Origin: Arthrobacter sp. MAHUQ-56
GTDB taxonomy: Bacteria; Actinomycetota; Actinomycetes; Actinomycetales; Micrococcaceae
Assembly (NCBI RefSeq): GCF_019710585.1
Contig: NZ_JAIFZQ010000020.1
Span: 62,001 to 126,000, forward strand
DNA length: 64,000 nt
Direction: 5' to 3'
Under the pieces are notes generated by a model. It worked only from the letters and a program-made list of their open reading frames with translations, was not told the DNA's origin and did not search any database. This document shows positions 61,729 to 64,000 of the stretch, in pieces (within the stretch, counting starts at the first letter, position 1; every line of letters starts with the position of its first letter). Position numbers and translations under genes: made by a program.

Positions 61729-62748
61729 ATGCCCCTCTTCGACCTTCCCCTGGCCCAGCTGCGCAGCTACACCTCCGAGGTCACGCCGCCGGAGGACCTG
61801 GGCGCGTTCTGGGATGCCACGGTCGCGGAGGCCCGCGCGTTCCCGCTGGACGCGTCCTTTGAGCCGGTGGAGAACTACCTCACAGTGATCGAAAGCTACG
61901 ATGTCACCTTCGCAGGTTACGGCGGGGCGCCGGTCAAGGGATGGCTGCATCTTCCGGCCAACCGGGAAGCAGGGGCCCCGCTTCCCGTGGTGGTGAACTA
62001 CATCGGCTACTCCGGCGGCCGCGGCGTGGTCAACCAGGACACGCGCTGGGCGCAGGCCGGGTACGCGCACTTCATCATGGACACCCGCGGCCAGGGGTAC
62101 GGCTTCACCCTGGGGGAGACGCCGGATCCGCACCCTTCCGCCGGGGACGTGGCGCACGCAGGCCTGATGACCAGGGGCATCGCCAGCAGGGAGGAGTACT
62201 ACTACCGGCGCGTCTACGTGGACGCTTTCCGCGCCGTTGAAGCCGCACAGGCCCATCCCGCCGTCGATCCCGCCAAGGTGGTGCTGGCCGGCGTCAGCCA
62301 GGGCGGCGGCCTGGTGGTGGCCACCGCGGGGCTCGCTGCGGGACGGCTCGACGGCGTCATCGCCGCGCTGCCCGACGTCCCGTTCCTGCAGGACTTCCCC
62401 CGCGCCATCGACATCACCCCGCGCGGGCCCTACCCGGAGATCGCCCAGTTCCTGGCCCGGCACCGGGAACGCTACGAGCCCGCGCTCGAGGTCCTGCGCT
62501 ATTTCGACGGCGTCAACCTGGCCCGGTACGCCACGGCGCCGGCGCTGTACTCGGCGGCGCTGATGGACGACATCTGCCCGGCATCCACGGTGTTTGCCAG
62601 TTTCAACGCCTACGGGGCGGGGACGTCCGCCGCGTCCGCCACGGGAGCCGCCAAGGAGATCGAGGTGTACCGGTTCAACAACCACGAGGGCGGCCAGGAG
62701 CACCACTGGATCCGGCAGCTGCAGTTCCTGCGCAAGCTTCTGGGGTAA
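61729..62748 (+). CDS. Acetyl esterase, CE7 (acetylxylan esterase / cephalosporin-C deacetylase) family
   Basis: 339 residues from ATG 61729. CE7 marks: RGQGYG near 120, and the nucleophile Ser190 in GVSQGGG; Asp in MDDICPAST and His in NNHEGGQEHHW complete the triad. The cytoplasmic, oligomeric CE7 enzymes remove acetyl groups from short imported oligosaccharides. It lies 62 bp after rhaB and would complement the GDSL esterase on acetylated side-chain sugars. Confidence 0.92.
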   Translation: MPLFDLPLAQLRSYTSEVTPPEDLGAFWDATVAEARAFPLDASFEPVENYLTVIESYDVTFAGYGGAPVKGWLHLPANREAGAPLPVVVNYIGYSGGRGVVNQDTRWAQAGYAHFIMDTRGQGYGFTLGETPDPHPSAGDVAHAGLMTRGIASREEYYYRRVYVDAFRAVEAAQAHPAVDPAKVVLAGVSQGGGLVVATAGLAAGRLDGVIAALPDVPFLQDFPRAIDITPRGPYPEIAQFLARHRERYEPALEVLRYFDGVNLARYATAPALYSAALMDDICPASTVFASFNAYGAGTSAASATGAAKEIEVYRFNNHEGGQEHHWIRQLQFLRKLLG

Positions 62749-62843
62749 GCGGCGGAGGTGAAACCGAAGCTTGTTCGCAGCTCCTTGCCTTGTGGCTCTG
62801 GAACTGCGTACAAGCCCGGGACGAAATGTGACGGCACCTGATT

Positions 62844-62871
62844 TTGCGGCGGCGCCAGCCGGGGTTATGGT
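62844..62871 (+). promoter_or_regulatory. Probable promoter of the DAHP synthase transcript
   Basis: TTGCGG (62844-62849), 16-bp spacer, TATGGT (62866-62871). Transcription would start at or next to the leader-peptide ATG (62879), giving a leaderless leader ORF. Confidence 0.45.
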
Positions 62872-62878
62872 CTCTTCC

Positions 62879-62938
62879 ATGACTAACCGTTGGTATGCGT
62901 ATTTTTCGTTGGCTCTGGAGGGGCCCGCGTCTAACTGA
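62879..62938 (+). CDS. Aromatic-rich leader peptide upstream of DAHP synthase
   Basis: A 19-codon ORF, MTNRWYAYFSLALEGPASN, with Trp5, Tyr6, Tyr8 and Phe9 in a block of five codons. All three aromatic amino acids occur together, as expected if ribosome stalling senses the end products of the shikimate pathway. No other known function fits so short an ORF ahead of this gene. It overlaps the 5' arm of a 10-bp stem with a downstream partner. The call rests on composition and placement. Confidence 0.7.
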   Translation: MTNRWYAYFSLALEGPASN

Positions 62939-62991
62939 CACGCATCCAACTTTCCTTCAGAGCCAACAGGGCAGAGATGATTCTCTGCCCT
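62908..62991 (+). promoter_or_regulatory. Attenuator-like RNA structures of the DAHP synthase leader
   Basis: GTTGGCTCTG (62908-62917), within the leader ORF, is a perfect complement of CAGAGCCAAC (62958-62967). Directly behind it AGGGCAGAGA (62968-62977) pairs with TCTCTGCCCT (62982-62991), loop TGAT. A ribosome stalled on the Trp-Tyr-Ala-Tyr-Phe codons would mask the first arm and so change the folding downstream. The last stem has no U tract, so termination may be Rho-assisted or the control may differ. Confidence 0.6.
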
Positions 62992-63054
62992 TCGCCGTTT
63001 CTCCGGCGGGTTCTGAAATCCGGGCCCGCTTCCCATCTGGAACAGGACCCGAAC

Positions 63055-64000
63055 ATGAGCACCGCAACAGCAGCCGCACCATCCACGTCCAACCTGCGCG
63101 TCAGCGAATTCACCGCGCTGCCCACGCCTTCCGAGCTTCTCGCCGAGCTGCCCCTGGACGCCCGGGCCGCGGCCGTCGTCGAACGCGGACGCGACGAAGT
63201 CCGCGCCATCATGGACGGCGTGGATGACCGACTGCTGGTCATCGTCGGGCCTTGCTCCATCCACGATCCCAAGGCCGGCCTGGAGTACGCCCGCCGGCTG
63301 GTCAGCCAGGCCGAGAAGCACAGGGAAGACCTGCTGATCGTCATGCGGACCTACTTCGAAAAGCCCCGTACCACCGTGGGCTGGAAGGGCCTGATCAACG
63401 ATCCGCGGCTGGACGGCAGCCACGACATGGTCACCGGCCTGCGCACCGCCCGCCACTTCCTGCAGCAGGTCACGGCCCTGGGGCTGCCCACGGCCACCGA
63501 GTTCCTGGAGCCGATCAGCCCGCAGTACATGGCCGACCTGATCTCCTGGGGCGCCATTGGCGCCCGCACCACCGAGAGCCAGATCCACCGGCAGCTGGCC
63601 TCTGGCCTCTCCATGCCCATCGGCTTCAAGAACGGGACCGACGGCGGCCTGCAGGTTGCGATCGACGCCTGCGGTGCCGCCGCGGCCGCCCAGGCCTTCC
63701 TGGGGATCGACGGCGACGGCAGGGCCGCGCTGGTGTCCACCGCCGGAAACCCCGACACACACGTCATCCTCCGCGGCGGCCGCAAGGGACCCAACTACTC
63801 GCCTGCCGACGTCGACAAGGCCTCCGGCGAGCTGGCCGGCAAGGGCCTAAACCCGCGCCTGATCGTTGACGCCAGCCACGCCAACAGCGGCAAGAGCCAC
63901 CACAGGCAGGCGGAAGTTGCCCTCGAAATCGGCGCCCAGCTCGAGGACGGCGGGACCTCCGCGCAGGCGATCGCCGGCGTCATGCTGGAAAGCTTCCTGG
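63055..64000 (+). CDS. 3-deoxy-7-phosphoheptulonate synthase, class I (3' end outside window)
   Basis: 315 codons visible from ATG 63055, with AGGA 7 bases upstream. Class I (AroF/AroG type) marks: GPCSIHDP (65-72), RTYFEKPRTT (98-107), KGLINDP (111-117), ATEFLEP, GARTTESQIHR and DASHANSGK. Typical proteins have 350-360 residues, so about 40 are missing. It joins PEP and erythrose-4-phosphate as the first step of aromatic synthesis and is classically feedback-inhibited by Phe, Tyr or Trp. The leader adds probable transcriptional control. Confidence 0.95.
   Translation, partial: MSTATAAAPSTSNLRVSEFTALPTPSELLAELPLDARAAAVVERGRDEVRAIMDGVDDRLLVIVGPCSIHDPKAGLEYARRLVSQAEKHREDLLIVMRTYFEKPRTTVGWKGLINDPRLDGSHDMVTGLRTARHFLQQVTALGLPTATEFLEPISPQYMADLISWGAIGARTTESQIHRQLASGLSMPIGFKNGTDGGLQVAIDACGAAAAAQAFLGIDGDGRAALVSTAGNPDTHVILRGGRKGPNYSPADVDKASGELAGKGLNPRLIVDASHANSGKSHHRQAEVALEIGAQLEDGGTSAQAIAGVMLESFL

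Follow-up and report, generated by a model that had tools for sequence, protein, structure and literature searches.

The class I DAHP synthase gene of Arthrobacter sp. MAHUQ-56 is very probably controlled by a ribosome-mediated attenuator which responds to aromatic amino acids. The element was analysed within a stretch of 64,000 nucleotides, called the window in the following; unless stated otherwise, coordinates refer to it, and all features lie on the forward strand. According to sequence comparison, the leader, its aromatic codons, the spacing of its -10 box, two helices designated 1:2 and 3:4, and the complementarity underlying a further pairing, 2:5, are conserved. The arrangement looks like a ribosome-mediated attenuator, minus two features that define the trp type.

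The gene downstream of the element (aroF type, positions 63055 to 64000) continues beyond the end of the window. Its assignment to class I DAHP synthase, proposed from the letters alone, agrees with the profile search: TIGR00034 (aroFGH, class I) was matched with 429.9 bits at a cut-off of 173.2, and the PF00793 match reaches genome position 126113, i.e. position 64113 in window numbering. The host genome encodes one class I DAHP synthase and one of class II, as determined by profile searches; the latter is located elsewhere (G000:C19:45376-46668), and inspection of its locus (L176) by eye revealed no leader peptide. On the 5' side of the leader are a rhamnulose-phosphate aldolase/dehydrogenase gene and a rhamnulokinase-like gene (NCBIfam; the rhamnulokinase models scored below cut-off), whereas no NCBIfam match was obtained for ORF 61729-62748, the 5' neighbour of the leader.

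Placed between this ORF and the synthase gene, downstream of the promoter, is an ORF of 19 codons (MTNRWYAYFSLALEGPASN, 62879 to 62938, ATG to TGA), which is probably leaderless and was present in all 138 Micrococcaceae loci fetched. In agreement with the original prediction, W, Y, Y and F were found inside five of its codons: the control codons TGG TAT GCG TAT TTT (W5 Y6 A7 Y8 F9) occupy positions 62891 to 62905 and are nearly invariant in 137 Micrococcaceae leaders. By its bare sequence, the aromatic cluster would be unexceptional (among the 1432 reading frames of 10 to 40 codons in the window, nested starts being counted apart, 17 contain at least four aromatic residues per five codons); it is conservation which, at the level of sequence, settles that the leader is real.

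A DNA similarity search matched the 211-base region of the element in all 101 genus genomes sampled and in 102 of the 245 family genomes sampled, in 15 of 32 genera; the family figure counts DNA-similarity matches, so that diverged leaders in the other 143 genomes lie outside its scope. The five Micrococcaceae genomes matched in a protein search with the DAHP synthase (G000, G002, G138, G162, and G131) all match the region, too. The 138 loci, the window's own included, stem from part of the matching genomes and comprise 60 of 72 family-search rows and 20 genus-search rows that named no locus. By pattern, the leader motif was detected in 137 of them, and the remaining one (L132) also contains the motif; this count is conditional, because the loci were picked by similarity to the same region. 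In L132, a deletion of one base in GGAGGGGCCC puts the leader out of frame after the control codons. This deletion may be a sequencing error; the genome concerned (G052) is 79% complete.

The element extends beyond the Micrococcaceae, which are f1 in our arbitrary labelling of families. A protein search (E ≤ 1e-60) identified class I DAHP synthases in 27 of 119 order genomes and in 58 of 296 class genomes. Outside the Micrococcaceae, 78 loci with a class I DAHP synthase were inspected, and 51 of them have aromatic-codon leaders: 1/1 in f4, 2/2 in f7, 7/7 in f8, 14/14 in f10, 19/20 in f26 (locus L195 has none), 2/2 in f41, and 6/6 in f53. The class I loci of f23 (0/17) and f48 (0/9) have no credible leader, and the element appears to have been lost there or never gained. 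Three second copies of f48 were outside the examined set, and the leader of L152 was found by eye. In total, eight families belonging to the class have such leaders; the aromatic motif varies by family (WYAYF, WYWF, WYWRF, YWRF, YFWF, YRWF, RYPYF), its place being constant. The expectation that the leader offers codons for all three aromatic amino acids was confirmed, as W, Y, and F are all represented in 176 of 188 leaders; in L187, L191, and L208, which belong to this number, Trp appears only beyond the cluster. The exceptions are 11 f26 leaders without Trp and one f7 leader without Phe. The position of the cluster relative to the sequence GGCTC was measurable in 178 of the 188 loci: in 177 of the 178, Phe is the last aromatic codon before GGCTC and starts 8 bases ahead of it; in the remaining locus a Tyr codon is found at 11 bases before it.

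A pattern scan of named genomes matched at least 118 stretches. Among the matches listed are the genera Arthrobacter, Pseudarthrobacter, Paenarthrobacter, Paeniglutamicibacter, Sinomonas, Zhihengliuella, Kocuria, Microbacterium, and Humibacter. A DAHP synthase follows downstream in 14 of 15 loci inspected, and the record of the 15th (L287) ends too soon. One record, L244:7825-7974, which is titled Sporosarcina beigongshangi, contains an Arthrobacter-like leader plus DAHP synthase; the name is probably wrong.

The leader ORF had also been proposed to be leaderless, and the promoter region speaks in favour of this assumption. A -10 box, TATGGT (62866 to 62871), is located 7 bases upstream of the leader ATG. 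All 188 leaders have the motif TANNNT 12 to 15 bases upstream of the start codon, whereas positions -45 to -16 combined gave 7 occurrences. For the 51 leaders from other families, the start was picked among nested start codons using the -10 box; thus, the count is unbiased for the 137 Micrococcaceae leaders only. Due to this distance of 12 to 15 bases, the leader mRNA is probably leaderless. The -35-like hexamer TTGCGG (62844 to 62849) has TTTG/TTGC-like counterparts near the same place in relatives, as seen by eye; it is rated weak, because a sigma-70 consensus scan of the leader region found no promoter.

The conservation of the control region concerns codons and not only residues: CGT TGG TAT GCG TAT TTT are kept in 135, 137, 136, 135, 136, and 136 of the 137 Micrococcaceae leaders, respectively. 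Four genes of the window use such codons sparingly: TAT for 1 of 49 Tyr residues, TTT for 3 of 56 Phe residues, and CGT for 5 of 109 Arg residues. Over the entire peptides of the 188 leaders, TAT was counted 334 times versus 3 for TAC, and TTT 186 times versus 13 for TTC. The sole ideas we can offer for this bias are that the 5' end is kept unstructured or that decoding is slowed. A motif that is nearly invariant in Micrococcaceae might alternatively signify nascent-peptide arrest, i.e. the ribosome would be halted by the WYAYF peptide itself, for which a bound amino acid may be needed. However, third codon positions are nearly invariant as well, and the peptide varies among families while aromatic content and spacing are constant. 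Therefore, codon reading fits better than a fixed arrest sequence, and we consider arrest by the peptide very improbable.

RNA pairing was assessed with an alignment of 93 sequences (A2; L254, L304, L244, and L287 were left out) and by folding. Segment 1 (GUUGGCUCUGGAGG, 62908 to 62921) lies inside the ORF and is the 5' arm of helix 1:2; segment 2 (CCUUCAGAGCCAAC, 62954 to 62967) is, according to alignment and folding, the partner of segment 1 or of a segment 5 described below. That part of the ORF serves as a 5' arm, as originally predicted, is borne out by the alignment: 98.8% of the 1:2 cells are paired, compared to 97.4% in shuffled alignments and 36-55% in slid controls. Double-change cells amount to 26 versus 8.2 in shuffles (0 of 500 as high). 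Hairpin 3:4 (62968 to 62991) consists of 10 base pairs formed by AGGGCAGAGA (62968 to 62977) and UCUCUGCCCU (62982 to 62991) with the loop UGAU; 97.4% of its cells are paired. Of the two perfect 10-bp stems initially described, the second has this length, whereas the first is longer, comprising in the window 14 base pairs with one G-U. The proposal that an alignment of relatives would reveal conserved aromatic codons and covariation of both stems held for the codons and for 3:4, where 7 of 10 pairs changed on both sides; for 1:2, only 2 of 14 pairs changed on both sides, a number no better than in the shuffles (1.2; reached by 87 of 500).

The small hairpin P4 (CGCCG/CGGCG, 62993 to 63008) is paired in 78.8% of cells; some double change occurs in all five pairs, but of the 75 sequences that have letters at the innermost pair, 61 are unpaired there. 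For 1:2, 3:4, and P4 together, 95.0% of cells are paired in the 93 sequences of A2 (shuffled 89.4, slid 41-56), and 14 pairs changed on both sides, compared to 8.5 in shuffles, none of 500 being as high; most of this covariation comes from 3:4. A further duplex, which was absent from the original prediction, could link segment 0 (GUUGGUAUGCGU, 62889 to 62900), overlapping the W-Y-A codons, with segment 0' (ACGCAUCCAAC, 62940 to 62950), directly 3' of the stop codon. Its energy was at p ≤ 0.05 versus shuffles in 54 of 78 Micrococcaceae loci. In sequence order 0:0' crosses the 1:2 stem and would be either a pseudoknot or an additional alternative state. A search of positions 62700 to 63100 with the Rfam covariance models (T-box, trp leader, riboswitches, and the rest) gave two chance hits far under the gathering score.

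According to the original assumption, the final stem would act as a terminator under the control of the ORF stem, in the manner of trp-type attenuation. If so, formation of 3:4 would be decided by translation of the leader. This reading can point to the fact that 3:4 is the helix with the most covariation and that its tail is T-richer than the sequence preceding aroF (for the 78 Micrococcaceae loci, 3.9 T per 10 versus 1.5; the family means range from 1.0 to 4.1). A strict U-tract follows in 8 of 129 loci, among them L089, L093, L103, and L108, and a T run was seen by eye in L105, which the rough measure, placing the hairpin end by folding, had missed. Moreover, aroR of Corynebacterium glutamicum is said, in the accessible text of PMC11802643 and PMC11525245, to act on aroF transcription. 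However, when the RNA was folded as far as the end of 3:4, the hairpin reached a probability of at least 0.8 in each of the three ribosome states for 110 of 119 loci (10 of the 129 were left out by a size filter), which means that nothing found switches 3:4; the probability fell below 0.5 in two f10 loci. Folding predicted for the 119 loci no antiterminator that competes with 3:4, and a strict terminator consensus scan of positions 62700 to 63200 detected no terminator. In addition, the only other partner detected for segment 2 is segment 5, which is transcribed later than the hairpin. The trp-type terminator switch was rejected: the scan and the predictions revealed neither a U-tract terminator nor a competing antiterminator, which are the two features defining this type. 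We regard classical transcription attenuation through 3:4 as unlikely, although some lineages may have a weak terminator. As an observation in its own right, the five Micrococcaceae loci L089, L093, L103, L105, and L108 have a run of at least 4 T after 3:4, a terminator look not shared by most relatives.

The lack of an intrinsic terminator in the scan would also suit Rho-dependent termination coupled to leader translation, which has been suggested for mycobacterial cys leaders (PMC1262725, accessible text). Rho would, however, leave the conserved helices 1:2, 3:4, and 2:5 unexplained, and we judge this alternative to be decidedly improbable.

Of the proposed attenuation layout, the leader with control codons and the pairing of an ORF arm are supported and the terminator is not. 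In place of the latter, the analysis points to an alternative pairing, 2:5, not contained in the original prediction, in which segment 2 binds segment 5 (GGUUCUGAA, 63009 to 63017) beyond hairpin 3:4. In the 93 sequences, 88.6% of the 2:5 cells are paired, compared to 88.1% after shuffling among sequences and 17-55% in slid controls, and double changes occur in 1 of 9 pairs; therefore, the complementarity of 2:5 is conserved, but hardly covaries in these sequences. As far as folding is concerned, 1:2 and 2:5 are mutually exclusive pairings with one arm in reach of a stalled ribosome. Folding was applied to set A1, i.e. 78 of 135 distinct Micrococcaceae loci with less than 97% identity. In the free RNA, the mean probability of 1:2 was 0.72, and 22 of the 78 loci favoured 2:5 even without a ribosome. 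A ribosome on Phe9, masking segment 1, resulted in a mean of 0.90 for 2:5, with values below 0.5 in 4 loci. With the ribosome on Trp5, segment 1 is free and 1:2 had a mean of 0.97; therefore, the model favours Tyr8 and Phe9 as stall sites. A ribosome covers about 15 bases from its P site, and with Phe in the A site GGCUC would be covered.

Shuffling of the 3' part lowered 2:5 in Micrococcaceae from 0.94 to 0.41. At most 1 of 20 shuffles was as high for 2:5 in 74/78 loci of f1, 7/14 of f10, 9/19 of f26, 3/7 of f8, 2/6 of f53, 1/1 of f4, 2/2 of f7, and 2/2 of f41. With segment 1 masked, the mean of 2:5 in the 51 loci of other families was 0.72. By these predictions, 2:5 is weaker outside Micrococcaceae. 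It was not predicted in four f10 loci (L225, L227, L229, and L230), which have a variant Y-F-W-F leader and a different fold. By eye, segments 1, 2, and 5 change in step between families: GGCUCUG/CAGAGCC/GGYUCUG stands here versus GGCUCCGG/CCGGAGCC/GCUCCGG in L157. When partners were swapped, native combinations scored better than foreign ones (1:2, -22.2 versus -17.4; 2:5, -16.3 versus -14.1), but some foreign partners were superior, e.g. segment 2 of f10 with the f53 partner (-17.9 versus -13.0 native); the test is not clean, because GC-rich partners bind broadly. Taken together, we consider it likely that the exchange between 1:2 and 2:5 is the switch.

The model we propose is as follows. 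Transcription would start at or adjoining the leader ATG, and a 70S ribosome would translate the leaderless mini-ORF. The ribosome would pause at codons 5 to 9 whenever tRNA charged with Trp, Tyr, or Phe is scarce; such stalling, the direction of its effect, and the output step are what we infer. During a pause on Tyr8 or Phe9 the ribosome would sit over segment 1, as GGCUC lies 8 bases beyond the start of the Phe codon. Covering segment 1 would keep segment 2 off the ORF and allow it to pair with segment 5, past a constitutive 3:4. If amino acids are abundant, segment 1 would be released, 1:2 would form, and segment 5 would be left loose. In the host genus, loose segment 5 (CGGGUUCUG) could then bind to the ribosome-binding site of aroF (CAGGACCCG) and shut it. 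A stall would consequently open aroF for translation, and the enzyme would be made when aromatics are short. On balance, we incline towards this full model, consisting of a leaderless leader, the 1:2/2:5 switch, and output at the ribosome-binding site.

Since segment 5 is transcribed after 3:4, any effect of a 2:5 switch must be exerted downstream of it, and the aroF ribosome-binding site would be the obvious target. Segment 7 (CAGGACCCG, 63043 to 63051), which contains the aroF Shine-Dalgarno sequence AGGA (63044 to 63047), is complementary to positions 63007 to 63015 (CGGGUUCUG) and partly to segment 6 (CGGGCCCGCUUCC, 63021 to 63033), for which segment 5 and the ribosome-binding site are possible partners. 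In the window, the predicted unpaired fraction of this site rose from 0.25 to 0.42 with segment 1 masked. Among 22 loci of the host genus, which are related and non-independent, folding predicted that masking opens the site by more than 0.1 in 15 and closes it to this extent in none. The test across families comprised 120 of 129 loci (78 plus 42): in the 78 Micrococcaceae loci, the shift was upwards in 24 and downwards in 9; the counts were 0 up and 3 down of 10 in f10, and 1 up and 3 down of 19 in f26, and in f4, f7, f8, and f53 none of 13 loci moved by more than 0.1. A conserved opening or closing of the site was rejected, the sign not being constant over these loci.

A rival model has the opposite wiring. 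A stall at Trp5 or Tyr6 would permit 1:2, segments 5 and 6 would pair, and the ribosome-binding site would be free, whereas fast translation would give 2:5, and 6:7 would close the site. For 6:7, the complementarity was at p ≤ 0.05 versus shuffles in 26 of the 124 loci used (of 129), including 4 of 10 in f10, and the f10 loci close, instead of open, with segment 1 masked. However, the sign is reversed in the host genus, and a stall at Phe, the amino acid reported as relevant in C. glutamicum, would mask segment 1 and turn the gene off. We regard the opposite wiring as improbable. Returning to the model with 2:5 formed during a stall, a translational output, whose sign is proposed for the host genus only, is plausible from the predictions but somewhat uncertain.

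Judging from the accessible text of the reports, the closest known system is the aroR-aroF attenuator of C. glutamicum, whose aroF leader with Phe-Tyr-Phe was seen in an RNA-seq study (PMC4046766) and which is also treated in PMC7356990 and PMC11525245. Both systems are actinobacterial and have an aromatic-codon leader peptide immediately 5' of a DAHP synthase gene. Compared by description, aroR has Phe-Tyr-Phe and is transcriptional, Tyr being irrelevant, whereas the Arthrobacter leader includes Trp; in C. glutamicum, Phe limitation raises transcription of the aroF operon and Tyr is without effect (PMC11802643, accessible text). In control searches, the C. glutamicum genome matched both DAHP synthase families, and a 27-base pattern taken from the published aroR primer had no match in the genome contigs.

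Leaderless leader peptides are described in the accessible parts of several papers on other Actinobacteria (PMC8079986, PMC5784534, PMC11857589). As in ilvBNC of C. glutamicum and leuL, trpL, and ilvL of S. lividans, the leader ORF would be at or near the transcription start, and several of those leaders are likewise without a clear U-tract (PMC8079986, PMC11857589, as far as accessible); unlike the one described here, they serve other amino acids. For ilvBNC, terminator and antiterminator hairpins are backed by mutation (PMC11857589, accessible text), whereas such competition is absent from the Arthrobacter predictions. The mycobacterial polycysteine ORFs also constitute leaderless leaders and are described as translation attenuation (Canestrari 2020 as cited in the accessible text of PMC13236596), with cysteine in place of the aromatics. 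Control-codon leader peptides and alternative RNA pairings are likewise reported for actinobacterial trp leaders and for the LEU element, in which the codons pair with the ribosome-binding site (Seliverstov 2005, PMC1262725). According to its accessible text, this 2005 survey of Actinobacteria found no conserved RNA structure 5' of phenylalanine or tyrosine operons. A literature search, which for the most part did not extend to subscription papers, yielded no report of such a leader element in Arthrobacter or outside Corynebacterium.

DAHP synthase catalyzes the entry step of aromatic synthesis and is a major target of strain engineering. It is a tentative and rather doubtful proposition that a class-wide, previously undescribed actinobacterial RNA family gates the shikimate pathway in that one leaderless mini-ORF pools the charging of tRNA-Trp, tRNA-Tyr, and tRNA-Phe by means of rare but almost fixed TAT/TTT control codons and a terminator-free 1:2/2:5 switch on aroF translation. 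Two questions can be put to experiment with this element: how attenuation might work where an intrinsic terminator is lacking, and why a leaderless ORF retains rare synonymous codons. If true, a leader that reads all three end products together would amount to their direct summing.
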